A DNA stretch of 64,000 nt from Deltaproteobacteria bacterium (GCA_018266075.1 JAFEBB010000018.1:1-64000); one strand, 5' to 3'; positions 10,035-28,005 are shown, counted from the first letter of the stretch. The notes: generated by a model not told the origin, from the letters alone. Numbers and translations are program-made.

Positions 10035-11189
10035 TCAGGTTTTCCCGCGGCGTGCAAAGGCATGCACGTGCGCTCGGATCTCGTCGACCTTGGCCTCCCA
10101 CGACTCGTGCGAAATCGCGGCACTGCGCGCCGCACCTGGCCCGGCTCCGCTGGCGAGCTGCTCGCGGACCGCTCGCACGAATGCTTCAGGCCCCGAAGCA
10201 ATCTTGCAGAGCCCGAGCTGGACGACCTCCGGCACGGGCGTCGACACCACCGGCAGCCCGGCCGCCAGGTACTCGCGAACCTTCAAGGGATTTGCGTTCG
10301 CGGTGAGCTCGTTCTCGGCGAACGGCATCAGCGCGAGGTCCCAGCCTTTGCAATAGGCGGGCAGCTGCGCGTACGGCTTGCGGCCGAGCAGGTGGATGTT
10401 CGGCGCGCCCTCGAGCACGCGCGTGTCGGTGGTGACCTTCCCGATGAGCACGATCGACGCGCTCGGAAGCGCGTCGGCCACCGCGCGCACCAGCCCCAGA
10501 TCGACCCAATCCGCGAGCAGCCCGAAGAAGCCAATCACCGGCTTGGGCAAGCTCGCGATGTCCTCGGGCACGAGCGTCGACGGATCGAGCGCCTTGCGGA
10601 AGTGCGCGTGATCCACGCCGTGCCGCACGAGCACCGTCCGCGGATTGAGCTTGGCCTTGGCCGCGCGCAGCTTCTCCGCGCTGGTGATGACCAGATCCGC
10701 GCGCCGCACGAGGTCGGCCTCCATCGAGCGAACCTCGTCGGCCGCGTCGCTGAAGGCGCTGAACTCATCGACGCAGTGGTAGACGACGCTCGCCTCGCCC
10801 AGGTGCCCCGCGACCGGCGCCGCCGAAGGCAGGAACGACCAGCTGATGGCGCTCTTGAACTGCAAGCGTCGCATGGCCCAGAGCACCTGGGCGCGCACCA
10901 GCCGCGCGTTCACCGCGCGCGACATCGCGTCGAAGAATGGCAGCGCCACCGGCCCGAGCACATGCAGGTTGGGCTCGACCTCATGCGTGCCACCGAGCGC
11001 GTCGCCGAGCTTCTTCACGATGCGCTGCGCATCATGCGGGTTCGCCTTCGGCGCGCGGTTGCCGAGCGAGTTCACCCAGAGCACGCGGTTGTCGCGCGCG
11101 AGGATGCGCATGAGGTGCGTCTTGGAGAGCGGATCGCCGTCCCAGTCGTTGGAGAAGCAGACGATGTCGCGTCCACGGAGCTCGGCCAT
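10035..11189 (-). CDS. Glycosyltransferase, GT1/GT4-like
   Basis: The 384-aa cytoplasmic enzyme has a GT-B C-terminal half: KPVIGFFGLLADWVDLGLV, IHLLGRKPYAQLPAYCKGWDLALMPF and KVREYLAAGLPVVSTPVPEV, the last being the nucleotide-sugar site. It should add one sugar during repeat-unit assembly; donor and acceptor are unknown. The start MAELRGRD is preferred over an ATG nine codons upstream. It is the last of the polysaccharide genes, 45 bases after asnB. Confidence 0.85.
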   Translation of the reverse strand: MAELRGRDIVCFSNDWDGDPLSKTHLMRILARDNRVLWVNSLGNRAPKANPHDAQRIVKKLGDALGGTHEVEPNLHVLGPVALPFFDAMSRAVNARLVRAQVLWAMRRLQFKSAISWSFLPSAAPVAGHLGEASVVYHCVDEFSAFSDAADEVRSMEADLVRRADLVITSAEKLRAAKAKLNPRTVLVRHGVDHAHFRKALDPSTLVPEDIASLPKPVIGFFGLLADWVDLGLVRAVADALPSASIVLIGKVTTDTRVLEGAPNIHLLGRKPYAQLPAYCKGWDLALMPFAENELTANANPLKVREYLAAGLPVVSTPVPEVVQLGLCKIASGPEAFVRAVREQLASGAGPGAARSAAISHESWEAKVDEIRAHVHAFARRGKT

Positions 11190-11234
11190 CGCTGCGCTGT
11201 GATCTTCGCGTCGCACGTCGCCACCCTCCCCGGC

Positions 11235-13118
11235 TCAGGCGCTCGCCCGCTCCGGCTCCCGACCCGGCGACGCCAGAAGCTTCTGGTGCCAGGCCTCGAA
11301 AATCCAAAGCGCGTACAGCTCCTCGGTGCGGTCCACGCGCGCGAGCCGGTGCTCATCCAGCAGCCGCGTGAGCAGCGCCGCCGGAAACAGCGCGCGACAC
11401 GCGCCGTTCGCCGCGAGGATCGTCGACCGCATCTGCTCGTGCAGCGGCTCACGGAGCCACGCGCCGGTGGGCACCGGGAAGCCGCGCTTGGGCCGCTCGA
11501 GGATCGCCGCCGGCAGGCGATTCTGCATCGCGCGCCGCAGGATGTACTTGCCCGTGCGCCCGTTCAGGCGAAGCGAATCCGGCAAGCTCCAGCAGAGCTC
11601 CACGAGCTCGTGGTCCAGGAACGGCACGCGCAGCTCGATGCTCGAGGCCATCGACATCTTGTCGGCCTTGAGCAGCAGGTCATCCGGCAGCCAGCCCTTG
11701 GTGTCGGTGTAGAGCATGCGCCGCAGCGGCGACAGGCCCTCGGTGCGCGCGTAGTACGGCGCCACGCGCTCCGCCGCGCGCGGCCCGCCGAGCCCGCGCA
11801 AGAGCGCTTCGACCATGGCGTCGCTGAACGCGCGCGACACGCCGCGATACCGGTCCGGCAGCTCGCGCGTGGCCAGGTCGAGGTACTTGCGCGCCTTCGG
11901 ATTGCGAATCGCCGTCGAGAGCAGCGGCGCGAGCAGATCCACCAGGGGCCCGAAGCGCCGCCCTGACTCGAGGGCGAGCTGTTTGAGATATATCGGATAT
12001 CCGGCGAGCGCCTCGTCGGCCCCCTCGCCCGAGAGCACGACCACGACCTCTTCGCGCGCGCGCCGCGAGAGGTGGAAGAGCGGGATGCACGCGGCGTCGG
12101 CGATGGGCTCGTCGAGGTGCCACGCCAGCTTGGGCACGAGCTCGCCGAAGTCGCTCGAGCTGAGCTGGATCTCGCGGTGCTGCGTCCCGAGCTGGTCCGC
12201 GGCGAGCTTCGCGAACGCCAGCTCGCCTTCGCGATCTCCCTCGTAGCCCACGCTGAAGCTCTTCACCTCGCCCTGGGCGTTGCGCTTCATGGCCCACGCA
12301 ACCGCCGACGAGTCGATGCCGCCGGAGAGGAACACGCCCACCGGCACCTCGGCCATGAGCCGCAGCCGCACCGCCTCCTCGAACATCTGCGCGAAGCGCT
12401 CCACCTGCTCCTGCTCACAGAGCGACGGATCCGGCTCGGCGCGCGCGGGCAGATCCCAGTACGGCAAGATGCGCAGCTCGCCGTCGCGGAAGGTCATGGC
12501 GTGGCCCGGTTGCAGCCGCGAGATGCCCTCGAGCAGCGTCGACGGCCCGGGCACCCAGCGCAGCGCCAGGTAGGCCGCGAGCTGCGAGGGATCGAGCCGG
12601 CGCGCCACATCCGGGAAGGCGAAGAGCGCCTTGGCCTCGCTCGCGAACACGAGGTCGCGGCCCGCGCGCGCCCAGTACACGGGCTTGATGCCCAGGCGAT
12701 CGCGAGCGATGAACGCCGTGCGCGTGCGGCCGTCCCAGATGCAGAACGCGAACATCCCGCGCAGGCGGCTGGGCAAGCCGTCGCCCCACTCTTCCCAGCC
12801 GTGCACGAGCACTTCGGTGTCGGAGCGCGTGGCGAAGGTGTGGCCGCGCGACTCGAGCTCCGCGCGCAAGAGGCGATGGTTGTAGATCTCGCCGTTGAAC
12901 GTGACCCAGACGTGGCTGCCACAGCCCGCGAGCGGCTGCGCACCGCCGGCGAGGTCGATGATCGAGAGCCGCCGGTGCCCGAGCACGGCCGGGCCGGCCT
13001 CATGGATGCCCCAGCCGTCCGGGCCGCGGTGCGCCATCACGTCGCACATCGCGCGCACGGGCGCCGCGTCCAGCCGTGCCGTGGGGTCCGCCGCGATCCG
13101 CCCTGCGATGCCGCACAT
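11235..13118 (-). CDS. asnB: Asparagine synthetase (glutamine-hydrolysing), polysaccharide-cluster type
   Basis: The 627-aa protein has an N-terminal glutaminase domain with catalytic Cys2 (MCGIAGR) and FNGEIYNHRLLR. The synthetase domain has the PP-loop VFLSGGIDSSAVAW. Such AsnB copies are common in exopolysaccharide loci, where they are thought to amidate a carboxyl group, perhaps of a uronic acid; it may also make plain asparagine. It lies between two glycosyltransferase genes, ten bases after the upstream one. All key residues look intact. Confidence 0.9.
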   Translation of the reverse strand: MCGIAGRIAADPTARLDAAPVRAMCDVMAHRGPDGWGIHEAGPAVLGHRRLSIIDLAGGAQPLAGCGSHVWVTFNGEIYNHRLLRAELESRGHTFATRSDTEVLVHGWEEWGDGLPSRLRGMFAFCIWDGRTRTAFIARDRLGIKPVYWARAGRDLVFASEAKALFAFPDVARRLDPSQLAAYLALRWVPGPSTLLEGISRLQPGHAMTFRDGELRILPYWDLPARAEPDPSLCEQEQVERFAQMFEEAVRLRLMAEVPVGVFLSGGIDSSAVAWAMKRNAQGEVKSFSVGYEGDREGELAFAKLAADQLGTQHREIQLSSSDFGELVPKLAWHLDEPIADAACIPLFHLSRRAREEVVVVLSGEGADEALAGYPIYLKQLALESGRRFGPLVDLLAPLLSTAIRNPKARKYLDLATRELPDRYRGVSRAFSDAMVEALLRGLGGPRAAERVAPYYARTEGLSPLRRMLYTDTKGWLPDDLLLKADKMSMASSIELRVPFLDHELVELCWSLPDSLRLNGRTGKYILRRAMQNRLPAAILERPKRGFPVPTGAWLREPLHEQMRSTILAANGACRALFPAALLTRLLDEHRLARVDRTEELYALWIFEAWHQKLLASPGREPERASA

Positions 13119-13128
13119 GCTGCCTCCC

Positions 13129-14112
13129 TCAGGCCACCGCTCGTGATAGGTCTCGATATATCTGTATCAGCCTGGGCAGCGCGTCGTCGCCCCGCGGCTC
13201 GGGCCGCGGCTGTGCCAGCGCCAGCTCGATGGCCTCCGCGAGCGAGAACGGATCGCCCGTGCGGAACACGCGAACGCCCTCGGGTCGGCGAGCGGCATCG
13301 CTCGCGACGGTGCGTACGCCCAACGCCAGCGCCTCGCGGACGCTCAGCGCATCGCCATCGATCGACGTCGGCCGCACGAACGCGTCGCTCTGCTTCATGA
13401 CCGCCAGCGCCTGCGCGTGCGCGAACTCGCCCAGAGCGACAACGCCTGGGTCGTTCGCATCCACGAGTTGCTTGCTGGACGGCCCGAAGACCACGCAGCC
13501 CAGCTCTGGCCGACGTCGACGCAAGAGCGCGAGCGCCGACGCGAGCACGCGCAGCCCGTACACCGGCGAGGGCGCGACGGCGCACGAGAGCAGCGGCCTG
13601 AAGCGCTCTCGAATCGCGAGCGCATCCGCGGTCGGACGACCGGGCCGCACGGACCCGGGCCAGAACGCGGGCAGCTCCATCATCCGCGCGTGCGACACAC
13701 CTGCCATCGCCAGCGCATGGCGCACTGCCGCGCTGACCGCGACGATTCGCCCAAAACCTGCGAGCGCACTTCGCGCCGCCACCTTCCGCGCGGGCGCGCC
13801 CGCCAGATAGCCCGGCAATAGCCCCGAGTGCAGTGTAACCAAATTGTGATGAAGCGGCGCGCGCGCCAGCCCACACGCGGCCACCAGCGCCCACGACTTC
13901 GGGTTGTGCCCCGAGGTGTGCACGTGAATCAGAAAGCCGCGCGCCGCGAGCGCCGCGAGCCTTGTCCCGAAGCGCCACATCGATCCCGGCCGCGCGGTGT
14001 CCACGAGCTCGACGGTGTGGCCCTGCGACGCGAGCTCCGTCGCGAGAGCCTCCACGTGCACGGCGATGCCACCGAAAGGCGGCGGCCGGTCGCCGACGAG
14101 CGCCACCTTCAT
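13129..14112 (-). CDS. Glycosyltransferase family 4-like
   Basis: The 327-aa protein starts MKVALVGDRPPPFGGIAVHVEALATELASQGH, the glycine-rich N-terminal loop of GT4 enzymes. Its C-terminal half has the EALALGVRTVASDA donor-site region (S-V-R-E-A-L-A-L-G). No membrane segments are seen, so it should act at the inner face of the inner membrane on the lipid-linked repeat unit. It starts two bases after the acyltransferase gene upstream. The sugar is unknown. Confidence 0.82.
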   Translation of the reverse strand: MKVALVGDRPPPFGGIAVHVEALATELASQGHTVELVDTARPGSMWRFGTRLAALAARGFLIHVHTSGHNPKSWALVAACGLARAPLHHNLVTLHSGLLPGYLAGAPARKVAARSALAGFGRIVAVSAAVRHALAMAGVSHARMMELPAFWPGSVRPGRPTADALAIRERFRPLLSCAVAPSPVYGLRVLASALALLRRRRPELGCVVFGPSSKQLVDANDPGVVALGEFAHAQALAVMKQSDAFVRPTSIDGDALSVREALALGVRTVASDAARRPEGVRVFRTGDPFSLAEAIELALAQPRPEPRGDDALPRLIQIYRDLSRAVA

Positions 14113-14114
14113 GG

Positions 14115-14588
14115 CTAGCCCGCCTCCGCCGCGTTCTCGCTGCCGCGTCCGATGATGCGCGCGGGGACACCGGCCACCGTCGCGCCAGCGGGCACGTCGT
14201 GGATGACCACCGCGTTCGCGCCCACGCGCGCGCCCGCGCCGATGCGCACCGGGCCGAGGATCTTCGCGCCCGAGCCCACGATGACGCCGTCCTCGAGGAT
14301 GGGCGCGCCCGCCTTCTGCGAGCGGCCACCGAGCGTGACCTGCGGCGAGAGGAAGCAGCTCCGTCCCACGCGCGCTTCCGGGTGAATCACCACGCCCAGG
14401 CCGCCGTAGCCGAGCTCCGTGCCCTCGCCGAGATCCGCCTCGGGTGGCAGGTAGCTGCCGTGCAGGTACTGGATGAGCTTGCGAATCACCTTCGGCACCA
14501 CCGGCACGCCCCGGAGGTGCAGCAAGCGCGAGGCCCGGTGCAGCTGCACGGCATCGAACACGACCCACCTCCGCCCAATCACGCCCAC
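14115..14588 (-). CDS. Serine acetyltransferase-like (left-handed beta-helix) acyltransferase
   Basis: The 157-aa protein has hexapeptide repeats of the LbH fold (EDGVIVGSGAKILGPVRIGAGARVGANAVV) and ends with the AGVPARIIG motif of the CysE group. CysE uses acetyl-CoA and serine; short versions in polysaccharide clusters are usually read as sugar O-acetyltransferases. The location between a glycosyltransferase and a second LbH gene favours that reading here. The reaction is inferred. Confidence 0.8.
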   Translation of the reverse strand: MGVIGRRWVVFDAVQLHRASRLLHLRGVPVVPKVIRKLIQYLHGSYLPPEADLGEGTELGYGGLGVVIHPEARVGRSCFLSPQVTLGGRSQKAGAPILEDGVIVGSGAKILGPVRIGAGARVGANAVVIHDVPAGATVAGVPARIIGRGSENAAEAG

Positions 14589-14629
14589 TCAAACTTGGGG
14601 GTCGCGCCGGGGGCCGGCAACCGCGTGGG

Positions 14630-15271
14630 TCAGCGGAGCTCCGTCGTGCGCACGGCGTTGCGCGACGGGCGACGCTCCACGCGCACCTCGTTCTTCGCCG
14701 CGCGCGCGGCCGGCAGTCGCTCGGGCTGGAGGTAGGCCGCGCTCCCCTTGCGCGAGATGACGCGCGCCGGGATACCGCCCACGCTCACGTGATCCGGCAC
14801 GTCGCGACAGACCACCGCGTTCGCGCCGATGGCCACGTCACTGCCAATCGAGATCGGTCCGAAGACCTTTGCGCCGGGCGCGACGTACACGCGGTCACCG
14901 AGCGTGGGCTCGCCGCGCAAACCGTCGCGCATGCCCACGCCGAGGATGACGCCCGGTGAGAGGTTGCAATCCGCGCCCATGACGACGCTCGGCCCCACGC
15001 GGATGCCACCCCAGTGTCCGATGTAGAGCCCGGGGCCGATGCGCGCACCGGGCGCGATGGCCACGCCCAGCGCCCAGCTCGCCACGCGCGCGAGCGGCTC
15101 GAGCGGCAGCTTCACCAGGAGTGAAACCGGCCTCGGGAGCTTCGTGTGCACGTGCCGACGCGCGCGATACAGCGCGGCCGCATAGAAGCCGGGGCTCTCG
15201 AGCGCGAGCCGGAGCGACCTCCACCCGCCGCCCGGAAACCGCGCGAGGTCCGCTCGAAGGTTCTCGAACAT
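14630..15271 (-). CDS. Serine acetyltransferase-like (left-handed beta-helix) acyltransferase
   Basis: The 213-aa protein has a helical N-terminus, then hexapeptide repeats (GARIGPGLYIGHWGGIRVG; GDRVYVAPGAKVFGPISIGSDVAIGANAVV) and GGIPARVIS. It is of the same general type as the gene just downstream but longer and only partly similar, so this looks like two different specificities rather than a fresh duplication. It lies 15 bases after the wzx stop. It probably O-acetylates the polysaccharide. Confidence 0.8.
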   Translation of the reverse strand: MFENLRADLARFPGGGWRSLRLALESPGFYAAALYRARRHVHTKLPRPVSLLVKLPLEPLARVASWALGVAIAPGARIGPGLYIGHWGGIRVGPSVVMGADCNLSPGVILGVGMRDGLRGEPTLGDRVYVAPGAKVFGPISIGSDVAIGANAVVCRDVPDHVSVGGIPARVISRKGSAAYLQPERLPAARAAKNEVRVERRPSRNAVRTTELR

Positions 15272-15286
15272 GCGCCCTCTCCCCGG

Positions 15287-16774
15287 TCAGCGCCGCACGA
15301 AGCCCGCCACCAACTCCAGCGGGCGCCCGCCCAGCAGCGCCAGCCCGCCCGCGTAGATCCCGCCAAAGAGCAGCCCCTCGCAGGTCAACCGCGCGAGGTG
15401 TCGGGAGGGCGGCGCCAGCGAGGCGAAGAGCGCCACCGCACCGGCCGCGACGACGCCCGAACCGACCGCGCGCGCGAGGTCCGGCAGTGGCACGAGCCTC
15501 CGCATGCTCGCGCCGAGCGCCGTCGGCAGCCGCGACATCAGCAGCCCCTTCCCGAACGCCTCGCCCAACAGCCACGCGAGGATCGCGCCCACGATGCCCA
15601 TGAACTTCAGCCCCACCAGCACCAGGGGCACGGCGACCACGGCCTTGGCCACGTAGCTCTGCAGGATGAAGTCGGTGCGCTTGCGAGCACGCAGCGCGCC
15701 GTCGACGGGGAAGCTCGCGAGCACGATGGCCCACACCGCGATCCGGAAGATCGGCACCGCGCTGCGATAACGCTCCGAGAACAGCGCAGGCACGAAGTCG
15801 GGCGCCGAGGCGAAGAGGAAGAGCGCCAGCGGCACGAAGAGCAGCAAGAGTCGACCCGTCGCCTCCCGGAACACGCCGGCGCCCTCTTCGCTGCGGTGCT
15901 CGGCGTCGAGCTCGCCGATGCGGACCATCAGGATTTCCGTCGTCGGCAGATAGAGCAGATCCACCAGCGGCAGCTGGAAGCAGCCCACCGAGTACACCGC
16001 GAACGACGCCGCGCTCACGCTCGCCGAGACCGCGTACTGGTGGAAGTAGCTCTGCGGCACCGCCACCAGCATCGCCGTGCCAAAGGGCAGCGCGTAGCGC
16101 CACTGCGAGCTCCAGGTGCGCGCGCTCACCATCGGCCCGGTCTCGCCGCGAACGGTGAACAGCAGCGCCGCGAGCCAGCGCGCGGTGGCCCAGGCCGCAA
16201 GTCCTGTGGCGAGGCCCGTCATGCCGAAGCCGAAGAGCACAGGCAGCGTCATCACCGCGGTGCGCACGAAATCGCTGGCGACGTAGGTGATCGCCGCCTG
16301 CCCCGTGCGCCCGCGCGCGGTGAACGTCACCTCGAACGGCAGCGACGCGAGCAGCCCCGCTGCGTAGAGCCCGAGCTGCACCTTCAACGCGCCGAGCCCG
16401 GGATTTCCGAGGCGAATCGCGAGCGGATCGCCGAAGCGCCAGAGCACGAGCGCCGCGGTCGCCGCCACGGCGCCGATGAAGAGGTGCGTCTGACAGAGGT
16501 ACGCGCGCCGGTCCTGACCGCGGGGCAAGAAGTAGTAGAGGCTCTGCACCACGCCAAACGGCAGCACCATGTAGAGCGTCTGCGCCACGAGCACGAACTG
16601 CTTGTAGGTGCCGTACTCCGTCGCGCTCAGCATCCGCGCGAGCACCAGCGGGATGCAGAACGTCATCAGCGCCGACACGCCACGCGCGAGCACCAGCTGC
16701 CGCGTGCGCGCCATCGTCGAGCGCGTCTCGGCCTGGACCTGAGCCGGAGCGTCGGCTGTCTCGGCGGGGTTCAA
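15287..16774 (-). CDS. wzx: Wzx-type polysaccharide flippase
   Basis: The 495-aa protein has about 14 hydrophobic segments and the start of the polysaccharide-biosynthesis (MOP) family: TRQLVLARGVSALMTFCIPLVLARMLSATEYGTYKQ. It should move undecaprenol-linked repeat units across the inner membrane for the Exo machinery. It overlaps the deacetylase gene upstream by four bases, so translation is probably coupled. In M. xanthus the spore-coat flippase is encoded away from exoA-I; here it is adjacent. Confidence 0.88.
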   Translation of the reverse strand: MNPAETADAPAQVQAETRSTMARTRQLVLARGVSALMTFCIPLVLARMLSATEYGTYKQFVLVAQTLYMVLPFGVVQSLYYFLPRGQDRRAYLCQTHLFIGAVAATAALVLWRFGDPLAIRLGNPGLGALKVQLGLYAAGLLASLPFEVTFTARGRTGQAAITYVASDFVRTAVMTLPVLFGFGMTGLATGLAAWATARWLAALLFTVRGETGPMVSARTWSSQWRYALPFGTAMLVAVPQSYFHQYAVSASVSAASFAVYSVGCFQLPLVDLLYLPTTEILMVRIGELDAEHRSEEGAGVFREATGRLLLLFVPLALFLFASAPDFVPALFSERYRSAVPIFRIAVWAIVLASFPVDGALRARKRTDFILQSYVAKAVVAVPLVLVGLKFMGIVGAILAWLLGEAFGKGLLMSRLPTALGASMRRLVPLPDLARAVGSGVVAAGAVALFASLAPPSRHLARLTCEGLLFGGIYAGGLALLGGRPLELVAGFVRR

Positions 16775-17877
16775 TCAGCACCCACACCCGGAGTGAAGTC
16801 GCCCACGACCGGCCGCTGGAGGCCAAGCGTCCCGAACACGGAGTCGACCTGGCACCCGAGGAGCGCGTCCGAGTGGCCGCCGAAGAGGCCGCGGCTGTGG
16901 TTCTCCCAGAGCGTCTTGCGCCGGAGTCGAAACGGATCGCCGCCGAGCTCGTTCTGCGCGTCCTCGGTCGTCACCGCCGACCGGTAGCCCGCGTGCACCA
17001 GGGCGTGCATGAGCTCGCGGCTGTAGAAGCCATTCGGATACGCGAAGTCGCGACAGGGCGCGCCGAGCTCGCGCTCAACCGTTGCCTTCGCTTCGCCCAG
17101 CTCGCGCGCGATCGACGCTGCGCTCTCGCGCGGCAGCGGCACGTGCCCCACGGTGTGCGCGCCAAAGCTCACCAGCCCCGAGCGCTGCAGCGTCCGACAC
17201 TGCTCCCAGTCGAGCAGCGCGCCATCGAGCGGCGGCGCCGGCTCGTTCAGACGCGTCGCGAGCGCGTCGATGGCCGCGAGCACCTGCGCGTGCGGCCAGT
17301 TGGTGATGAAGCGCTCCACGGCCTCCACGGGATCGAGCCGAATCAGCGGCGCCCATGCATCGACACCACCTGCCCACTCGAAGATCGCCGGCTCGCGACG
17401 CGCGCGCGCGTGCACGAGGCGCAGCAGGTGAAAGAGCCGATCGTGCGGCAGTCGCGCGTCGGTACCGATGAAGCCCGTGGGCAGGAAGATCGTCGCCGGC
17501 ACGCCCAGCTGCTTCAGGATCGGAAACGCGACGTCGAAGTTGTCTCGATAGCCGTCATCGAAGCTGATGACCGCCACGTCGCGCCGCGGCTGGCGAAGGC
17601 CCGCGTTCACCTCGAGCGCCTCCGCGAGCGGCACGATGTCGAAGCCGCGCCGCACTTCTTCCAGATGCCGCGCGAACGTCTCTGCCGAGACGAGCAGCCC
17701 CGGAATCACGCGCTGCGAGTCGGCGTGAAAGTCCTGCACCACGCGGTGGTACGCGAGGATGAGCGTGCGTCGTCCGCCGGCCTTGAATCGCGCGGCGGCG
17801 GCGAGCACGCGACGCGCGCCCGAGTGATGGAGCGCGGCCGCGCAGGCCGCCTTCGCCGCCTGCTTGAGCCCGCCCAT
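16771..17877 (-). CDS. Polysaccharide deacetylase (NodB domain)
   Basis: The 368-aa protein has NodB motif 1, VISFDDGYRDN, with Asp107/Asp108, and the metal pair HTVGH (His241, His245) of motif 2. The family removes N- or O-acetyl groups from sugars using a divalent metal. There is no clear signal peptide, so it may act on lipid-linked units in the cytoplasm or be exported otherwise. It lies 15 bases after exoI. Confidence 0.88.
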   Translation of the reverse strand: MGGLKQAAKAACAAALHHSGARRVLAAAARFKAGGRRTLILAYHRVVQDFHADSQRVIPGLLVSAETFARHLEEVRRGFDIVPLAEALEVNAGLRQPRRDVAVISFDDGYRDNFDVAFPILKQLGVPATIFLPTGFIGTDARLPHDRLFHLLRLVHARARREPAIFEWAGGVDAWAPLIRLDPVEAVERFITNWPHAQVLAAIDALATRLNEPAPPLDGALLDWEQCRTLQRSGLVSFGAHTVGHVPLPRESAASIARELGEAKATVERELGAPCRDFAYPNGFYSRELMHALVHAGYRSAVTTEDAQNELGGDPFRLRRKTLWENHSRGLFGGHSDALLGCQVDSVFGTLGLQRPVVGDFTPGVGAD

Positions 17878-19074: not shown

Positions 19075-20273
19075 CGGCCCACCTCGCGAACCGCGGCCGC
19101 CACGGCCTCCGCCAGTGCCGCGGCCGCTTGCGGCGTGACGTCCTGGTGAATCGGAATCTCGAGCACGGTGCGCCGCAGCTCCGCCACCTCGGGAAACTCG
19201 GCGAGCGCGCACGAGGGATGTCCCGTGCGCCAGAAATCGACGGTCTCGACGCCGCGTGCCGCGAGCAGCATGGCCACCGCGTCGGGCCGCTTGGTGCGCA
19301 GCGGGTAGAAGAGCGGACACACGCCCGCGGGAAGCGTGGTGAAGACCGGCGGTGCGATCTCGCGGAGCCGCGCCATGAGGAGGAAGTAGTTGCGGCGGCG
19401 AGCAGCGACGATCTCCGCCACGTCCTGCGCGAGCGCGAGCCGCAGCGCCAGCGGCGACATCCCCAGCGACGAGTTCGAGCGCTCGAAGTGCTGCGTGCCC
19501 GTCGCGACGTTCCCCACGCCGGCTGCGTTCGCCGTACCGCGACCCAAGGCGCGAATGCCCTGCCTGAGCAAGCGCCCTGCGACTCCCGCACGGAGCTCGA
19601 GGTTGGAAAGAAGCAGCGTCGCGAGGTGTCTCGCGGTCGCAGCGCGCGGCGGCGGATGTGGAACGGGAAGCCCCGACGGCCGGCCAGGCGCGAGCACCAG
19701 CGCGCCGCCGTGCGGCACGGGCAGCGTCTTGTAGAAGCAGAAGATGCTCGCGTCACCGAGGCGCCCGAGCGGCAGCAGCCCGTCGCCCGAGAAGAGCGCC
19801 AGCGCGCAGTCCTCCACGAACACCAGCCCGCGCCGGTCGCAGAGCTCGCGAATCTCTTGGGCCGGCCCCGGAAAGCCCAGGTAGTGGATGAGGTACACCG
19901 CGCGCGTCTGCGGACCGATGCGACGCTCGAGGTCCATCAGATCCGGCTGCATCTTCGAGTCGACGCGGAAGAACTTCACCTTCGCGCCCGCGTCGATGAG
20001 CGCCTCGACCTCCACGCCGTGGTGGTACGCAGGCACCAGCACCTCGCGACCTTCGAGCCCGAGCACCTTCACCGCGAGCCACACGGCGTTTCGCGCGAAG
20101 TAGAAGTGCCGGACCTGCGGCGCGTCGAAGGGGAACGCGGGCTCGCCGCGAGGCGCTTGCCAGAGCATCTCCGGCCAGAGCGTGGGCAGCGCGGGCACAT
20201 GGCCGGGTCCGCGAACCTTCGACGGCGACGGCGCGACGCGCTGCGCCTCCTGGGCTAGCGCTTCCACGGCCAC
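19071..20273 (-). CDS. exoH: PLP-dependent sugar aminotransferase, DegT family, ExoH-like
   Basis: The 400-aa protein matches the DegT/DnrJ/EryC1 fold: VEDCA with Asp155 for the PLP ring nitrogen, and the Schiff-base lysine in FCFYKTLPVPHGG (Lys182). These enzymes transfer an amino group to a nucleotide keto-sugar. The start is GTG and overlaps the exoG end by 19 bases; the stop overlaps exoI. Set between two acyltransferases, it should make the amine that they acylate. The conserved N-terminus is somewhat divergent. Confidence 0.85.
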   Translation of the reverse strand: MAVEALAQEAQRVAPSPSKVRGPGHVPALPTLWPEMLWQAPRGEPAFPFDAPQVRHFYFARNAVWLAVKVLGLEGREVLVPAYHHGVEVEALIDAGAKVKFFRVDSKMQPDLMDLERRIGPQTRAVYLIHYLGFPGPAQEIRELCDRRGLVFVEDCALALFSGDGLLPLGRLGDASIFCFYKTLPVPHGGALVLAPGRPSGLPVPHPPPRAATARHLATLLLSNLELRAGVAGRLLRQGIRALGRGTANAAGVGNVATGTQHFERSNSSLGMSPLALRLALAQDVAEIVAARRRNYFLLMARLREIAPPVFTTLPAGVCPLFYPLRTKRPDAVAMLLAARGVETVDFWRTGHPSCALAEFPEVAELRRTVLEIPIHQDVTPQAAAALAEAVAAAVREVGR

Positions 20274-21382
20274 ACCTCCGAGAGCGTGGCCTTCACGCCC
20301 GGCGCGACCTTGAACTTTGCGGCGTGCAGCGCGCGTCCGCGCAAGCTGTCACCAAACGCGTAGCACCAGTGGTGAACGCGGACCTTGTCCGTCCACTCCT
20401 GCTTCCAGGGCATGTTCGGGCCGAGGAAGTCGAACTCGCGCAGCCCGCGATCGCAGCAATCCGCGAGCACGTCTTCGAGGATCAAGTGGCCCGGCGAGGC
20501 CTGCGAGAGCGACTCGTCGAAGCCGAGCTTCGGCAGCGCGCAGATGCCGGCGTGCGTGAGCGCGAAGTAGAACGCCACCGTGCGATCGCCGGCTCGCAGG
20601 AAGAAGAGCGACAGCGTGCCTGCATCGGCCGACGCGTGCGCGAGCGCGCTGTAGAACGCGCGCGTAGCCTCGTCGCTCGAAATCGCTGTGCCCTCTTTGC
20701 CCTTCCAACCTGCGGCTTCGAGCGCGAAGCCCTCGTCGAGCTTTGCGTCGAGTGCGGGCCCGCCCGTGAAGCGCTCGAAGGTGATCTCGCCCTGCTCCGC
20801 GAGCTTCTTGCGACGCCGACGCAGGTTGGAACGGAACTTCGCCGTCAGCCGCTCCATCAGCACGTCCTTCGACACGCCCAGCGGAATGAATGGCGTCTGC
20901 ATCGACTCCCAGAGCCCCGTGTGCCGCCCCGCAGCCTTGGCAAGCTCGATGAGTGAGCGCGCAGCGCCGCTCGGTGGCACATCGGGGAGCTCGAGCACAT
21001 CCCAGTCGAGCTCAGCGAGTGCGCTCCACACGGCCTGAATCGCCGGCGCGTCATCCGCGCGCGCCACGAGATCGAAGCGCGCGGAGTGAACGTTCGCCGC
21101 GCCCGAGAGCAACGTCGCGGGCAAGCCGTAGAAGCCCTCGCGCCGCTCCACGAGCACCAGCCCCGCACGCAGCCCGCTCGCGTCGTGCACGGCGATGCAG
21201 CGCACCGGCTTCTCCTTCGCGAACGCGTCCAGCCAGCAGCGCAGGAACGCGTGCGAGTAGAACGGCGCGTCGTGTTCGGTGCGCGTCAGCAGCGCGCGCC
21301 ACGCGGGCTCGAGGGCGTCGAAGCCCGCGCGATCCAGCACCTCCACGCGCAGCGATTCATTGGGCAGCGCAGGATTCGCCAT
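20255..21382 (-). CDS. exoG: FemAB/GNAT-type N-acyltransferase, ExoG-like
   Basis: The 375-aa protein is of the same family as exoI. It has KFRSNLRRRRKKLAEQGEITFERF and the C-terminal RTVAFYFALTHAGICALPKLGFDESLSQASPGHLILEDVL...EFDFLGPNMPWKQEW. It starts three bases after exoF and overlaps exoH by 19 bases. It is clearly related to exoI but diverged, so the two probably act on different sugars or donors. M. xanthus exoG is described as an N-acyltransferase. Confidence 0.82.
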   Translation of the reverse strand: MANPALPNESLRVEVLDRAGFDALEPAWRALLTRTEHDAPFYSHAFLRCWLDAFAKEKPVRCIAVHDASGLRAGLVLVERREGFYGLPATLLSGAANVHSARFDLVARADDAPAIQAVWSALAELDWDVLELPDVPPSGAARSLIELAKAAGRHTGLWESMQTPFIPLGVSKDVLMERLTAKFRSNLRRRRKKLAEQGEITFERFTGGPALDAKLDEGFALEAAGWKGKEGTAISSDEATRAFYSALAHASADAGTLSLFFLRAGDRTVAFYFALTHAGICALPKLGFDESLSQASPGHLILEDVLADCCDRGLREFDFLGPNMPWKQEWTDKVRVHHWCYAFGDSLRGRALHAAKFKVAPGVKATLSEVWPWKR

Positions 21383-21385
21383 GGC

Positions 21386-22474
21386 TCACTCCTTCCCGCC
21401 CGGCGCGCGCCGTGCGGCGATGGCCCGCTTGAGCTCCGCGAGCCGCAAGATCCAATTCGCCAGCTTCCGCGCGTCGTGACGCACCCGGGCGCCGCGCGCG
21501 GTCACGTCGGCCTGCACCAGGTGCACCCCGAGCGCCTCGAGCTTGTCGCCGTCCACGCCCACCGGCTGCGCGCCCTCTCTCGCGTAACGCGCGATCTGCT
21601 CGGGCGTGTGCTCGCCCGCGTGCGCGAGGACGCAGTTCAGCACCGGCCCCACGTGCTCGTGCAGCGCGCGGACGTGATCCGCCGCCTCGTAGCCGTCGGT
21701 CTCGCCGGGCTGGGTCATCAAGTTCAGCACCAGCACCTTGAGCGCGCGCGAGCGCGCGAGCGCCTCGGCCACGCCACCCACGAGCAGGTTCGGCAAGATG
21801 CTCGAGTAGAGCGAGCCCGGCCCGAGCACGACGACGTCCGCGAGCTCGATGGCCGTGAGCACGCCGGGAGCTGGCGGCGGCGAGGGCGGATCGAGCGCGA
21901 GTCGATCGATGCGTCCGCCTGCGTGGGTGATGGCCTGCTCGCCCACGATGCGTCGACCGTCGTGCAGATCCGCCACCAACTGCACGCGCCGCAGCGTCGA
22001 GGGCAGCACGCGTCCGCGCGCGCCGAGCAGCGTGCCCGCGACACGAACCGCCTCGAGAAAATCACCCCGCAACTGCGAGAGCGCGCCGAGCACGAGATTT
22101 CCGACGGTGTGTCCCTCGAGTCCCGCGCCGCGCTCGAAGCGAAACTGGAAGAGCTCCTTGAGGCCCTGGTTGCGCGGCCCCGCGAGCGCCACCAGGCAGT
22201 TCCGCACGTCGCCGGGCGGCAAGAGATCGAGCTCGCGCCGCAGCCGCCCCGACGAGCCGCCGTCGTCGGCCATGGTGACGATGGCCGTGAGCTGGAGCAG
22301 CGGCTCGCCCGGCTTGGGCGAGGTGTGCGGGCGCAGCCCGCGCAGCACCACGGGCATGCCCGTGCCGCCGCCCACGCAGACCACGCGAATCGGCTCGGGC
22401 ATGTTGAAGAGCCCACGACCGATTTCGGAGCGCGGCTGGTTCGGCCCGCGGACGAGCTCTTCTTCGAGGCGCAT
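21386..22474 (-). CDS. exoF: YvcK/CofD-like protein, ExoF-like
   Basis: The 362-aa protein has the nucleotide-sugar-binding signature VVCVGGGTGMPVVLRGL, then TMADDGGSSGRLR and LGPGSLYSSILPNLLV, all typical of YvcK (UPF0052). In Gram-positives YvcK binds UDP-sugars and controls wall metabolism. In M. xanthus a YvcK-like ExoF lies at this place in the exo operon. It starts two bases after exoE. A regulatory or UDP-GlcNAc-sensing role is inferred. Confidence 0.88.
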   Translation of the reverse strand: MRLEEELVRGPNQPRSEIGRGLFNMPEPIRVVCVGGGTGMPVVLRGLRPHTSPKPGEPLLQLTAIVTMADDGGSSGRLRRELDLLPPGDVRNCLVALAGPRNQGLKELFQFRFERGAGLEGHTVGNLVLGALSQLRGDFLEAVRVAGTLLGARGRVLPSTLRRVQLVADLHDGRRIVGEQAITHAGGRIDRLALDPPSPPPAPGVLTAIELADVVVLGPGSLYSSILPNLLVGGVAEALARSRALKVLVLNLMTQPGETDGYEAADHVRALHEHVGPVLNCVLAHAGEHTPEQIARYAREGAQPVGVDGDKLEALGVHLVQADVTARGARVRHDARKLANWILRLAELKRAIAARRAPGGKE

Positions 22475-22476: not shown

Positions 22477-23835
22477 CTACCTCGCCCCCCGGCCGAGCAG
22501 CACGTGCCGCACCGTATGAAACAGAATGGTTATATCGAGGAAGGCCGAGCCGTTCTTGATGTAGTAGAGGTCGTACTCGAGCTTGTTCCGCGCGTCCTCC
22601 ACGCTCGCGCCGTACGGGTAGCGGATCTGCGCCCAGCCGGTGACGCCCGGCTTCACCGCCTCGCGCAGCCCGTAGAACGGGATCACGTCCTTGAGCTGGT
22701 TCACGAAGACGGGCCGCTCCGGCCGCGGGCCCACGAGCGTCATGTCGCCGCGCAGCACGCTGAAGAGCTGCGGCAGCTCGTCGAGCCGGCAGAGCCGCAG
22801 CCACTTGCCCACGCGCGTCACGCGCGGGTCGTTCTTCTGGGCCCACTGCGCGCCCGCAGCCTCGGCGTCGACGCGCATGGTGCGGAACTTGGTGATCTGG
22901 AAGACCTTGCCGCCGAGGCCGACGCGCTCCTGGCTGTAGAAGAGCGGCCCCTTCGAGTCGAGCTTCACCGCTGCGGCCACCACGAGCATGACCGGCGCGG
23001 CGAGCAGCGCGAGCGTGCCTGCGGAGATGAGGTCGAGCGCGCGCTTCACGAACGCCCGAACGCGCGACGGTCGAAGCTCTTCGGCGTAGATGAGATCGCT
23101 CTGGCGAAGCTGATTCACCGGCAGCCGACGCAGCACGCGCTCGGCGAAGCGCGCGCCCTCGAGCACATTCCGGCCGTCGAGCCGGCAGCGCAGCAGCGCA
23201 TCGGCCGGCAGCCCTCGACGCGCGTCCCCGCTGGCCACCACCACCGCGTCCGCGCGCAGGCGCGCTGCCACCTCGGCCACGTCGCCACGAAGCACGTTCG
23301 GCGGCGCACCCTCGGGATCGCCGTCATCGACGAAGCCGAGCAGCTCGCACGTGCCCTCGCCGTCTTTCTGGATCGAGCGCGCGAGCTCCTGCGCGCGCGG
23401 ACCTGAGCCCACGATGAGCACGCGCGATGGATGCGCGAGCACGATCCACAGCGCGTAGCGGACCGCAACGGCACCGAACACCGCACCCGCAGCCGCGCCG
23501 AGCGCTGTCCCACGCGGGGCGCCATGCAGCACGTGCGCGAGGAGCGGAGCTACGAACGCGAGCGCCAATCCGCCGGCGCGCAGGAGCCGCGTGCCCGTTT
23601 CGCGATCGCGCTGGGCGACGCCGAGGTCGTACAAGTCGCCCGCGTAGAGCGCGACCTGCACCAGGCCGGTGACTCCTATCGCGAGCGCCAGCCCCGCGCG
23701 CGTGTGCATCGCGGCCGGACCGGCGAGCAGGCCCTCACCCGCGAGCGCCGCGGAAAAGAGCGCCATCAGCTCGAGCGCGAACAAGCCCACCTTGCGCGGC
23801 GAGAACCAGTGATTGAAGACCCGCGCCATCGCCAT
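22477..23835 (-). CDS. exoE: Polyprenyl-phosphate hexose-1-phosphate transferase, ExoE-like
   Basis: The 452-aa protein starts the repeat unit by moving a sugar-phosphate to undecaprenyl phosphate. The N-terminal half has four or five membrane segments and a Rossmann-like domain (VLIVGSGPRAQELARSI). The C-terminal catalytic part has FVKRALDLISAGTLALLAAP, FQITKFRTMRVDAE, LDELPQLFSVLRGDMTLVGPRP and PGVTGWAQ. The ATG at 23835 is chosen; TTG at 23868 is possible. An 80-base gap with a palindromic repeat separates it from exoD. Confidence 0.9.
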   Translation of the reverse strand: MAMARVFNHWFSPRKVGLFALELMALFSAALAGEGLLAGPAAMHTRAGLALAIGVTGLVQVALYAGDLYDLGVAQRDRETGTRLLRAGGLALAFVAPLLAHVLHGAPRGTALGAAAGAVFGAVAVRYALWIVLAHPSRVLIVGSGPRAQELARSIQKDGEGTCELLGFVDDGDPEGAPPNVLRGDVAEVAARLRADAVVVASGDARRGLPADALLRCRLDGRNVLEGARFAERVLRRLPVNQLRQSDLIYAEELRPSRVRAFVKRALDLISAGTLALLAAPVMLVVAAAVKLDSKGPLFYSQERVGLGGKVFQITKFRTMRVDAEAAGAQWAQKNDPRVTRVGKWLRLCRLDELPQLFSVLRGDMTLVGPRPERPVFVNQLKDVIPFYGLREAVKPGVTGWAQIRYPYGASVEDARNKLEYDLYYIKNGSAFLDITILFHTVRHVLLGRGAR

Positions 23836-23880
23836 GGTGTCCGCCCGCCCTGCCCCGTCCAGCGCCAACCGTCCGACCCC

Positions 23881-23947: not shown

Positions 23948-23948
23948 A

Positions 23949-24665
23949 TCAGCGATACGCCAGCTCCGCCACGTCGACGCCGTTCAGCACGCAGCCCAGC
24001 ACGGGCGCGTCGTGCAGCTGCGAGAGCGCCTGTGACACCCGCCGCGACGACGTCTGCCCGGCCTTCACCACCATCACCACGCCCTGACACTGCGTGGCCA
24101 GGATGTGCGCGTCGGCGAAGGCGAGGCACGGCGGCGCGTCGAGGTAGACCTCGTCGAAGTGATCGGCCGCGTGCTTCATGAGCTGCCGCATCACGCTCGA
24201 ATGCAGCAGGTCCGCGGCCTCTTCGACCTTTCCACCTGCAGGCATCACCGCCAGCCGCGTGCTCGCGAAGCGCCGCAGCGCGCTCGGCACCTGCGCCTCG
24301 CCGCGCAGCACCTCGGCCAGGCCAGGCTGAGGCGTGAGGCCGAGCAGCGTGTGCACCGTCGGCCGCCGCAGGTCGCAGTCCATGAGCAGCACGCGCCGCT
24401 CGGGGTTCGCGGCGGCCGCGGCGAGCGCGAGGTTCACCACGGTGAGCGTCTTGCCCTCGCCCGCGACCGCGCTCGTGAACGCCACGGTCTTCAGCGGCCG
24501 CGTGGCGCGCACGCGCTCCAGCCGGTGGTACAGCAAGCGGAACTGCTCCGCCGCGGCCGATGCCGGTTGGGTGATGGCGACCACGCGATTGTCGATGTCG
24601 TTGAAGCTCGCGTTGGCGTCGACGCGGGTCGCGAAGTTTCCACTGCGCTCGATGGTGGGATTCAT
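23949..24665 (-). CDS. exoD: Bacterial tyrosine (BY) kinase, ExoD/BtkA-like
   Basis: The 238-aa cytoplasmic ATPase has Walker A SAVAGEGKT (65-73), Walker A' VLLMDCDLRR (92-101) and VYLDAPP as Walker B. It matches CpsD/CapB kinases, which phosphorylate tyrosines and are activated by a membrane partner, here ExoC. The C-terminus ends AELAYR, so the usual tyrosine cluster is reduced to one residue. It lies 15 bases after exoC. The split ExoC/ExoD arrangement matches M. xanthus. Confidence 0.88.
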   Translation of the reverse strand: MNPTIERSGNFATRVDANASFNDIDNRVVAITQPASAAAEQFRLLYHRLERVRATRPLKTVAFTSAVAGEGKTLTVVNLALAAAAANPERRVLLMDCDLRRPTVHTLLGLTPQPGLAEVLRGEAQVPSALRRFASTRLAVMPAGGKVEEAADLLHSSVMRQLMKHAADHFDEVYLDAPPCLAFADAHILATQCQGVVMVVKAGQTSSRRVSQALSQLHDAPVLGCVLNGVDVAELAYR

Positions 24666-24680
24666 GGCGTTTCTCCTGAG

Positions 24681-26138
24681 CTACGCGTCGAGGGTGGTGG
24701 GCCGATTCACGAGGGGCCGCAGCTTCTTCCCGCTGCCGAGGAGCTGCGCCTTGCCCAGCTGCGGCACCGCGGCCAGCACCGGCAGCTGCAGCGCGACGTG
24801 CGCGTCGCCGACCTCGCGCAGGCTGTCGTCCTGCAGCTCCAGCACCACACCCGCGAGGAGCCCCAGCGCCAGCGCGGCGAGGGCCACGAGCATCATCCCC
24901 GCGGTGCGGTCGGGCCGCGCCGGGAGCGCCGGCACCGCCGCCGCCGAGATGACGTGGAACATCTGCGCCCGCGCGCGCAGCTCCTGATCCTGGGCCACCT
25001 CGGCCTCGACCTTGCGCGAGAGCATCTGCTGGTACTTGGTCTTCAAGACCTCGTACTGCCGGTCGAGCTCGGCGAGCGGCGCGCTCCAGCGAGGCGTGTC
25101 GTCGATGCGCTGGCGGTAGATCTCGGACTGCTGCTTCAGCTCGGACACCTCACGCTCGAGCTCGCGCACCTCGTTGGCCGCCTCGGCGACGCTGGTGTCG
25201 GCGTTGCGGATCGCGGCCTCGAGGTGGGTGCGCTGGCTGTGCGTGCTCTGCAGCTCGCGCTCCAGCCGCTGAACTTCGGGGTGGTCCTCGGTGAACTGGC
25301 TGCGGGCGGCGTTGAGCGCGCCCTGGAGCTCGCTCTCGTGGTGCGCGAGCCGGCCGGCGTCGGTGTCGGCGTCGATCCTGCCCTTGCTGGCTTCGGCGTG
25401 ACGGCGCTGGGCGTCGTGGAGCGCGTCGGTGCGCGTGCTGAGCACCATGGTGGTGCGCTCCAGGCCGCGCATGTTGGCCTCCATCTGCTCGGGCAGCTCG
25501 CCGAGGTGCGCGACCTTGAAGTCGCCGAGCTTCTTCTCCTGCGCCGCAACTTCAACCGAGAGCTTCGACAGCTCGTCCTCGAAGAGGTCGTGCACCAGCG
25601 CGGCCTGGTTGGCGCGCACGGAGAGCGTCTCCTCGGCGAACAGGTCGGGCAGCCGGTTGGCCACGTTCGCGGCGATCTGCGGGTCCGCGTCTTCGAACGT
25701 GAGGTCGAACGCGTTCTCGCCCTCCACCTTCACGTCGAGGTGGTGGCGCAGCTCGCCGGCCGCGGCACTGAGCCCGTTCTTCTTCACGATGTCCGGGTAC
25801 AGGTTCTGCTCCTGCACCACCTGCTCGAGGATCGGCCGGCTGAAGAGCTCGGTCTGGATGGTCTTAAGCCGGTCCTCGATGAGCTGGGTGACCGTGGGGT
25901 TCACCAGCTCGGGCGAGACGCGCGCCTGCTCCACGCGCATCGTCGACTCCGCCCGGTACACGTTCGGCGAGCCCTGCACCACGGCCGAGCCAATCGCCAA
26001 GACGATCGCGCCGACCAGCAGGCACAGCTTGCGCCGCCGCCAGATGCCGGCGAGCACGCGCTGCGCGTCGATGCCCTGCTCGGCCGACCTGCGCTGAGCG
26101 TCCATCATGAAGTTTCGCGTCGGCAGCTCCGATGCCAT
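24681..26138 (-). CDS. exoC: Polysaccharide co-polymerase / chain-length protein (Wzc N-terminal type), ExoC-like
   Basis: The 485-aa inner-membrane protein has a Wzz domain with a first membrane segment (RRRKLCLLVGAIVLAIGSAVV), a long periplasmic coiled-coil region rich in Glu/Gln/Arg, and a second membrane segment (MMLVALAALALGLLAGVVLE) near the C-terminus. It lacks a kinase domain, which ExoD supplies. It should set chain length and couple to the export channel. The ATG giving MASELPTRNF has AAGGGG upstream and is preferred over one 22 codons earlier. Confidence 0.88.
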   Translation of the reverse strand: MASELPTRNFMMDAQRRSAEQGIDAQRVLAGIWRRRKLCLLVGAIVLAIGSAVVQGSPNVYRAESTMRVEQARVSPELVNPTVTQLIEDRLKTIQTELFSRPILEQVVQEQNLYPDIVKKNGLSAAAGELRHHLDVKVEGENAFDLTFEDADPQIAANVANRLPDLFAEETLSVRANQAALVHDLFEDELSKLSVEVAAQEKKLGDFKVAHLGELPEQMEANMRGLERTTMVLSTRTDALHDAQRRHAEASKGRIDADTDAGRLAHHESELQGALNAARSQFTEDHPEVQRLERELQSTHSQRTHLEAAIRNADTSVAEAANEVRELEREVSELKQQSEIYRQRIDDTPRWSAPLAELDRQYEVLKTKYQQMLSRKVEAEVAQDQELRARAQMFHVISAAAVPALPARPDRTAGMMLVALAALALGLLAGVVLELQDDSLREVGDAHVALQLPVLAAVPQLGKAQLLGSGKKLRPLVNRPTTLDA

Positions 26139-26216
26139 TCCCGTGCCCCTTTCCAACCCGCCCCGGGTGTCGCCGCGCCCGTCACCCCGTCCCATGCTCG
26201 CCAAGGCCTGCTCCCG

Positions 26217-27356
26217 TCAGATGTGCTTGGGCGCGAACTCCGGCGCCCAGGTGAGCTGCACCCCGAAGATGTTTCGGTCCACGTTCACCAGCTGGGCCGC
26301 GCCCGTGTTGATGTCCTGCTGCTGGATGCGCTGCGCCTGCAGGTGCCCGGAGATCTCCCGGGTGAAGGCCCAGCCCAGCCCGCCGCCAATCGAGTAACCC
26401 TGCACCGTGGTCGGTCCATCCGGCGCGAGGCCGTTGCGGAACGCGCCCGAGCCCAGCCAGAGGTTGAGCTTGCGCCACGGGTGCCAGGCCACCGCGAGCT
26501 CGGCGTAGTCGGCCCACACGGCGGCCGCGTAGCCCGCGGAGCCGAGCAGGTCGTGCCCGCCGATGAGATCGATCTCGCTGAGCTCGCCGGCCCAGGTGAT
26601 GCCCGCCTCGCCCACCGGGACGACCGACGTCGCGCCGCGCTGGGTACCGTCGACCCAGGCCAGCGGGCCGCCCTTCGCATACGCGTGCCACTTCTCGGAG
26701 AGCTGGTGGTCCCAGGTGAGGAGGCCGGTGTGCGTCTGGCCGACGACGTCCGGCACGGCGATGAAGGCCTGGTAGCGGTACGTGACGCCGACCGTGCCGC
26801 GCGCGCCGAGCTTGTACTGGTACGAGGCCGACGGCGCCTGGGTGAGGCTGAGCGGCAGCCCGGCCTGATCGATCTTTGCGACCTCCTGGCGATCGTCGAG
26901 GAGGACGCTGCTGCGCGGCGAGAGCTGGTAGGTCAGGCCGGCGCCGCCCGTGCTGTAGAAGATCGGCACCGGGATGGCGGCCAGGCCCAGGCGCGGCAGC
27001 GACGTCGGATCCTGCACGCGCCACGCCTCCACGTCGCCGCGCACCGCGAGTCGATGGGTGAGCTGGTCCTTGATGTCGAAGGCAGCGCGGTGATCGAGCT
27101 CGGGCACCTGTTGCACGGCTTTGTAGAGCGCGTCGGCGGCGTACCAGGCGTCGAGCTTGAGCTCCTCGTTGGCTGCCGTCAGGCCGAGCTTGGGCGAGAT
27201 CTTGGAGAAGACCTCCTGGTTGCCGTTCAGGTACGGGTCGGTGTCGTAGCGGGCCTCGGTGCCCAGCTCGACGAGCGGCTTCACGATCGTCTCCGCGCGC
27301 GCCACCTGCGCGCCCAGGACGCCGACCACCGCCACGCTGAAGGCCGCCCACCGCAT
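26217..27356 (-). CDS. exoB: Outer-membrane beta-barrel protein, ExoB-like (Wzp porin type)
   Basis: The 379-aa protein has a signal peptide (MRWAAFSVAVVGVLGAQVARA) and then many alternating strands, for example YQYKLGARGTVGVTYRYQAF, ending in LTWAPEFAPKHI. This fits an outer-membrane barrel. In M. xanthus the exo operon encodes a beta-barrel partner thought to give the outer-membrane pore when the OPX protein is too short to cross it. It lies between exoA and exoC. Weakly conserved in sequence; assigned by order and fold. Confidence 0.78.
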   Translation of the reverse strand: MRWAAFSVAVVGVLGAQVARAETIVKPLVELGTEARYDTDPYLNGNQEVFSKISPKLGLTAANEELKLDAWYAADALYKAVQQVPELDHRAAFDIKDQLTHRLAVRGDVEAWRVQDPTSLPRLGLAAIPVPIFYSTGGAGLTYQLSPRSSVLLDDRQEVAKIDQAGLPLSLTQAPSASYQYKLGARGTVGVTYRYQAFIAVPDVVGQTHTGLLTWDHQLSEKWHAYAKGGPLAWVDGTQRGATSVVPVGEAGITWAGELSEIDLIGGHDLLGSAGYAAAVWADYAELAVAWHPWRKLNLWLGSGAFRNGLAPDGPTTVQGYSIGGGLGWAFTREISGHLQAQRIQQQDINTGAAQLVNVDRNIFGVQLTWAPEFAPKHI

Positions 27357-27411
27357 CGCCCGCCCCCCGCCGCCTCGACCGCCCACGCCTCAACCCGCCC
27401 CGAAGCCCTCC

Positions 27412-28005
27412 CTACGGCACGTAGATGGTGTCGCCCGCGTCGAGGTAGATCGCGTCGCCCTTGTTGCCCTTGACCATGTCCGAGTAGCGCACCGTGTAGC
27501 GCTGCGTGGCCTGGCCTTCCTGCTGCCGCACGATGGTGATCGCGTCCTGATCGGCAAACGGGTTGAACCCGCCCGCGGCAGCCAGCGCCTGGAGCAGGGT
27601 CACGCTGCCGCGAAGCGGAAAGGTGCCCGGCTTTTGCACCTCGCCGATGACGTGGAACCGCGGCGCGTTCACCTCACGCACGATGACGGCCACCTTCGGG
27701 TCCTCGACGTACGGCCTGAGCTTCTGCTGGATCTCGCCAGCCAGCTCCCCTGCGGTCTTGCCCTGCGCGGTGAGCTCGCCCAGGAGCGGCAGGCTGATCT
27801 TGCCGTCGGGTCGGACCGGCAGCGTCCGCGAGAGGTCCTCGCTGTGCCAGACCGACACCTCGAGCACGTCCTCCCGACCGATGTGGTACTCGGTCAGCGT
27901 CTGCGGCTGGGCTGGCGGAGCCGACGTCGTGGCGCAGCCCGAGAGCGCCAGCGCCGCCAGAAGCCCGCAGATCCCGCTGCCGCCCAAAATCCGTCTGGAG
28001 CCCAT
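27412..28005 (-). CDS. exoA: Polysaccharide export lipoprotein (OPX/Wza), ExoA-like
   Basis: The 197-aa protein has a lipoprotein signal (LLAALALSGC), a polysaccharide-export domain (YHIGREDVLEVSVWHSEDLSRTLPVRPDGKISLPLLGEL) and one SLBB domain (FHVIGEVQKPGTFPLRGSVTLLQALAAAGGF). It is much shorter than E. coli Wza and lacks the C-terminal helix that crosses the outer membrane. It is first in the operon, 55 bases before exoB, and has a sigma-54-like promoter upstream. Confidence 0.92.
   Translation of the reverse strand: MGSRRILGGSGICGLLAALALSGCATTSAPPAQPQTLTEYHIGREDVLEVSVWHSEDLSRTLPVRPDGKISLPLLGELTAQGKTAGELAGEIQQKLRPYVEDPKVAVIVREVNAPRFHVIGEVQKPGTFPLRGSVTLLQALAAAGGFNPFADQDAITIVRQQEGQATQRYTVRYSDMVKGNKGDAIYLDAGDTIYVP

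Follow-up and report, generated by a model that had tools for sequence, protein, structure and literature searches.

A contiguous sixteen-gene exo locus as the probable ancestral form of the myxospore-coat polysaccharide operon

Introduction

The Exo (MASC) system of Myxococcus xanthus, one of the closest known systems to the locus considered here, comprises exoA-I, exoL-P and exoJ/K, of which exoA-I and exoL-P form two separate blocks, with insertions described (PMC7310880), the insertion between the blocks amounting to 25.7 kb; M. xanthus also depends on nfsA-H to form a coat from the polymer which the Exo system supplies (PMC3858216). A contiguous MASC cluster, in which further pathway genes directly follow exoA-I, was published in 2020 for Anaeromyxobacter sp. 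Fw109-5 (PMC7310880). The locus under study consists of sixteen genes at positions 10,035–28,005 of the window, i.e., the whole 64,000-nucleotide stretch JAFEBB010000018.1:1-64000 from the draft genome of a Deltaproteobacteria bacterium (GCA_018266075.1) which, judging from its named relatives, appears to belong to class Myxococcia. Our reading, to which we assign a probability of about 0.85, is that these genes constitute the Exo (MASC) operon for the myxospore-coat polysaccharide, still contiguous as in the ancestor. The dispersal of the spore-coat genes in Myxococcus would then go back to one linked block, also found in several other phyla.

Gene content and orthology

All sixteen minus-strand open reading frames were verified and, as the original prediction had it, they form a tight same-strand run (Table 1); there are three overlaps, and the positive gaps measure 2–113 bp. 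The Pfam domains of the products also agree with the functions named in the original prediction. The first nine genes are collinear with the exoA-I genes of named Myxococcus, Corallococcus and Archangium loci (tblastn), with 31–59% identity to contigs of Myxococcaceae genomes, in line with their earlier assignment to exoA-I in this order. There was no merger of exoA-I with flippase or glycosyltransferase genes foreign to the pathway; the appended genes, AsnB and one additional acetyltransferase-like gene apart, are orthologues of exoL-P and match, in order, the separate Myxococcaceae block deacetylase–Wzx–acetyltransferase–glycosyltransferase–glycosyltransferase. The names exoL, exoO and exoP are those which we take these downstream genes to bear. 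ExoM corresponds to MXAN_3260, and exoN encodes a homologue of serine O-acetyltransferase (PMC7484181).

The locus resembles that of M. xanthus in the genes and their order within each block, in having Wzy apart and in the presence of an nfs cluster in the genome; it differs in the exoI–exoL junction, the point of the split in Myxococcus, which measures 15 bp here, and in two genes without counterpart in the three Myxococcaceae exo loci used for comparison, namely a hexapeptide acetyltransferase gene (14630-15271) and an AsnB gene. The cluster is a real, well-conserved and ordinary member of a known pathway, with two genes added, and these represent parts missing from the locus of the model organism.

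None of the sixteen genes encodes a Wzy polymerase, the PF04932 matches of the genome being confined to other contigs. The Wzy of an Anaeromyxobacter-type exo locus, used as query, has one homologue in the genome, a single exoJ orthologue on another contig (G000:C2:68189-69508), so that the locus is incomplete; of the “ancestral full locus” originally proposed the word “full” must be dropped, whereas the ancestral linkage is upheld by gene order, exoL-P orthology, congruent trees and joined loci in outgroups. Strong matches to this exoJ-like protein occur in 100 of 147 genomes of the class, and in two Myxococcus-type genomes the Wzy match lies ~250–260 kb from exoI, near the published 223 kb (PMC7310880). 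The sampled Anaeromyxobacter-type loci have Wzy inside and Wzx inverted or elsewhere, whereas the present locus has Wzx inside and Wzy elsewhere. An orphan second Wzx of the same genome (G000:C16:77110-78609), 74% identical to ExoM, lies beside a methyltransferase gene and without other exo genes.

Table 1. Genes of the exo locus in transcriptional order (positions in the window)
Gene and product	Coordinates	Strand	Basis
exoA/wzaS, short outer-membrane polysaccharide export (OPX) lipoprotein (Poly_export + SLBB, no Wza_C)	27412..28005	-	PF02563, SLBB; 48–56% identity to Myxococcaceae exoA
exoB/wzpS, candidate outer-membrane beta-barrel, exoA partner	26217..27356	-	no Pfam match; 31–34% identity to syntenic Myxococcaceae exoB
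exoC/wzcS, Wzz-type co-polymerase without fused kinase	24681..26138	-	PF02706; best NCBIfam TIGR03007
exoD/btkA, stand-alone bacterial tyrosine kinase	23949..24665	-	AAA_31; best NCBIfam TIGR03018
exoE, polyprenyl-phosphate hexose-1-phosphate transferase (bacterial sugar transferase)	22477..23835	-	PF02397; TIGR03013 above cut-off
exoF, CofD/YvcK-like	21386..22474	-	PF01933; TIGR01826 above cut-off
exoG, tandem-GNAT, FemX-like transferase	20255..21382	-	PF13480 (Acetyltransf_6); AlphaFold2 pLDDT 94.7; FemX top, Z 22.9
exoH, DegT/DnrJ-type aminotransferase	19071..20267	-	PF01041; 47–60% identity in alignment
exoI, tandem-GNAT, FemX-like transferase	17893..19074	-	PF13480 (Acetyltransf_6); AlphaFold2 pLDDT 93.7; FemX top, Z 23.7
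exoL, polysaccharide deacetylase	16771..17877	-	PF01522; 46–47% identity to exoL of split Myxococcaceae loci
exoM/wzxS, Wzx flippase	15287..16774	-	PF13440; class-wide best matches in exo-associated positions
Extra hexapeptide (EpsC/CysE-like) acetyltransferase	14630..15271	-	PF00132; closest homologue is paralogue G000:C2:65796-66383, 50% identity
exoN, serine-O-acetyltransferase-like hexapeptide protein	14115..14588	-	PF00132; 54–58% identity at syntenic exoN position
exoO, family 4 glycosyltransferase (GT4)	13129..14112	-	PF13692; 45% identity at syntenic Myxococcaceae position
AsnB-type glutamine amidotransferase	11235..13118	-	PF00733, GATase_7; nearest NCBIfam TIGR03108
exoP, GT4 glycosyltransferase	10035..11216	-	PF13692; 62% identity at syntenic Myxococcaceae position

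Ancestral linkage of the two blocks

The positions of the exoI, Wzx and Wzy matches were compared across class Myxococcia. The second block directly follows exoI in six families, the genome's own included. In f1, to which the genome itself belongs, in f2, f4 and f9 and in a single genome of f8, exoI and exoM stand ~1.1–1.4 kb apart with the deacetylase gene alone between them; in f5 a Wzy gene is interposed as well. In the ~35 Myxococcaceae genomes in which both genes were placed and hand-checked, the distance is at least 9.7 kb and often megabases, the second block of this family being found 10–80 kb off or at greater distances, whereas Anaeromyxobacteraceae have kept exoL and Wzy in place, their Wzx being inverted nearby or located elsewhere. 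Beyond the class, joined loci are found in named GTDB genomes of Bryobacterales and other Acidobacteriota, Nitrospirota (Candidatus Manganitrophus), NC10 and Schekmanbacteria, where they usually carry Wzy and AsnB.

Trees built separately from exoG+H+I and from exoL+M agree in their main clades, though not fixing the order in which close families branch; Myxococcaceae are monophyletic in them, and the present locus falls near this family and f8. From this agreement the joined arrangement would seem to be the older one and the split seen in Myxococcaceae a later change; the simplest reading of these sequence comparisons would be one ancient joined locus that was broken before the Myxococcaceae radiation, while transfer of exo loci between phyla is possible. 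The idea of an ancestral linkage is confirmed here rather than new, because a contiguous cluster had already been published (PMC7310880).

Some further exo genes were met with in the course of the comparison. Archangium lansinium and the metagenome-assembled genome Zod_Metabat.575 each hold a second exo-like locus with exoG, exoH and an exoL-like gene, so that paralogous exo loci exist; the second locus of one of the two (L108) also has exoI. Homologues of exoG-H-I on contigs labelled Wenzhouxiangella or Gammaproteobacteria reflect either transfer or mislabelled bins, and in two of these contigs a hexapeptide gene like that at 14630-15271 stands upstream. A record titled Comamonas sp. KCTC 72670 bears a typical Myxococcus exo locus and is probably mislabelled.

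Proposed pathway and alternative readings

In the proposed pathway ExoE would transfer the first amino sugar to undecaprenyl phosphate, ExoO, ExoP and probably other enzymes would extend the repeat unit, and ExoL would deacetylate an amino sugar, whereas ExoH, ExoG, ExoI, ExoN, the extra acetyltransferase and AsnB may take part in the making or decoration of the sugars. The repeat unit would then be flipped by ExoM, polymerised by the Wzy (exoJ) encoded on the other contig, controlled in chain length by ExoC/ExoD and exported through ExoA/ExoB, the barrel role of ExoB being taken from PMC9601211. The products of a separate nfsA-H cluster would finally compact the polymer into a coat.

What indicates that the polymer is meant for spores? 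In a Myxococcus-type genome, an eight-gene cluster downstream of exo, whose products include GltC-, GltE-, GltG- and CglE-like proteins, is arranged as nfsA-H should be. In the genome under study, contig G000:C41 carries homologues of nfsA, B, C, D, E, G and H in order (34–47% identity; seven of the eight genes, nfsF not having been searched). This cluster favours the spore-coat reading. Contig G000:C50 carries a second, weaker glt-like set, and the two clusters together suggest that this family of Myxococcia, hitherto unsampled, possesses machinery for gliding and for sporulation.

The following points weigh against the main reading. The nfs genes of the reference genome were recognised not from their names but from the order in which they stand and from their Glt paralogy; Exo-type loci are present in phyla not known for myxospores (Acidobacteriota and others); and AsnB and the extra acetyltransferase could signify a different polymer. 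Because of the second point the locus alone is not diagnostic of a spore coat, and the presumed spore-coat use in this organism therefore rests on phylogeny and on the nfs cluster. The same occurrence of Exo-type loci, in Anaeromyxobacter and outside the phylum, would fit a polymer that vegetative cells make as capsule or exopolysaccharide, the spore use of Myxococcus being a later specialisation, and so would the fact that XrtA/PEP-CTERM exopolysaccharide families are the best NCBIfam matches of exoA, exoC, exoD, exoE and asnB; we regard this as unlikely, given that the genome has nfsA-H, the dedicated spore-coat assembly machine of M. xanthus (PMC3858216), and that the locus branches near Myxococcaceae.

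These NCBIfam matches, four of the five lying below the curated cut-off, could also be taken to mean that the locus is part of an XrtA/PEP-CTERM exopolysaccharide–exosortase system, with whose loci it shares related families of OPX protein, co-polymerase, tyrosine kinase, phosphoglycosyl transferase and AsnB. The deacetylase and GNAT families differ, however, neither the FemAB nor the deacetylase family of XrtA systems giving a match, and no exosortase (PF09721) is found in the draft genome (96.6% complete) at E ≤ 0.01, an absence for which membership in such a system, scarcely credible in our estimation, was rejected. Nor is much to be said for a recent fusion of exoA-I with an unrelated capsule cassette of Wzx, acetyltransferases, glycosyltransferases and AsnB. 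Although the separateness of the M. xanthus blocks (PMC7310880) would agree with such an event, joined loci are widespread in outgroups, and the exoL-P orthology of the downstream genes and the agreement between the upstream and downstream trees led to the rejection of this very improbable origin.

ExoG and ExoI as candidate aminoacyl transferases

ExoG and ExoI are customarily described as N-acetyltransferases. Their AlphaFold models, predicted with high confidence (Table 1), rank FemX, FemA, the streptothricin aminoacyl-tRNA-dependent synthases and MprF first in fold comparison; the Fem and streptothricin enzymes reach Z-scores of 20–24 and the MprF-type proteins 16–19, as against at most 16.6 for acetyl-CoA-dependent tandem GNATs. 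The likeness to FemX is seen by fold comparison only, a sequence-profile search of the PDB with ExoG and ExoI having returned nothing significant. The acetyl-CoA loop signature (Q/R)xxGx(G/A) is lost at its last position, which is V in 41 of 42 ExoI and L in 36 of 47 ExoG sequences, and near the C-terminus there is an aromatic–Lys pair (YK and WK) whose lysine is kept in every one of the 42 ExoI (K332) and in 46 of the 47 ExoG sequences (K327). These lysines may correspond to FemX Lys305, with which their position fits by aligned range only. Lys305 is the residue that FemX uses, DhpH-C has Phe328-Lys329 in this role, and Gly-tRNA serves a related enzyme in the glycylation of streptothrisamine (PMC12945691).

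The predicted double-GNAT fold and the C-terminal aromatic–Lys pair are shared with the FemABX transferases (FemX, FemA, streptothricin Sbb17/Sba18), from which ExoG and ExoI differ in sequence (~10–16% identity) and in that the aminoacyl-tRNA donor and the substrate are here only predicted. N-Acetylgalactosamine and glycine have been described in myxospore coat material, possibly as bridges (PMC9603273, PMC12288465). On the basis of the FemX-like folds, the broken acetyl-CoA loop, the aromatic–Lys pair and the coat glycine, it may tentatively be proposed that ExoG and ExoI, instead of transferring acetyl groups, act as ligases of FemX type that depend on aminoacyl-tRNA; they would place glycine from Gly-tRNA onto an amino sugar freed by ExoL and so yield a secreted polysaccharide with tRNA-derived amino-acid or peptide substituents, added independently of the ribosome. 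The models make this a possibility to which we would give somewhat less than even odds, since PF13480 proteins at large may show this fold match. The open literature, as distinct from subscription papers, which lay outside our coverage, holds no paper stating a FemX-type role for ExoG or ExoI. If the proposal is true, Exo-type loci of several phyla would have tRNA-derived amino-acid chemistry in common; in any case the FemX-like folds offer a testable route to the glycine of myxospore coats.

AsnB and the extra acetyltransferase

AsnB retains Cys2 and the SGGIDSS loop, with which it should function as a glutamine-dependent amidotransferase; of the NCBIfam families the XrtA amidotransferase comes nearest to it, and its likely role is the amidation of a uronic acid or of an amino-acid carboxyl in the polymer. 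It is present in the exo loci of f2, f4 and f8 and in most non-myxobacterial loci, whereas the exo loci compared from Myxococcaceae, f9 and Anaeromyxobacter do not have it. The extra acetyltransferase is tied to the pathway by its closest homologue, the paralogue G000:C2:65796-66383, which lies 1.8 kb from the lone exoJ. Since both genes are lacking in the compared Myxococcaceae loci, the “variant polymer pathway” offered as the other option in the original prediction is possible, through these two genes. Genes for GlmS-like proteins or UDP-sugar dehydrogenases occur in other exo loci and suggest that related polymers contain amino sugars and uronic acids.

Organisation and setting of the locus

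From exoA to exoP, and with refined starts, the intergenic spacings are 55, 78, 15, 113, 2, 3, -13, -4, 15, -4, 15, 41, 2, 10 and 18 bp. No terminator-like site was found on the minus strand inside any of these gaps, and such sites as were found are no more numerous than the shuffle expectation. The locus is probably read as one transcript. The start of exoA at 28005, also given in the original prediction, is the best supported among the candidates. Between exoA and the ferredoxin gene that precedes it (28710-29015) lies a spacer of 704 bp, where a promoter would most naturally be expected; a search upstream of exoA gave no match to a sigma-54-type pattern, and no sigma-70-like sites were found in the spacer. 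The GC content of the stretch is 68.7%, GC3 being high in most of the sixteen genes, and the draft genome measures 7.84 Mb. At the other end, an ABC-F gene (8370-9992) lies on the same strand only 42 bp downstream of exoP, so that the transcript may run past exoP.

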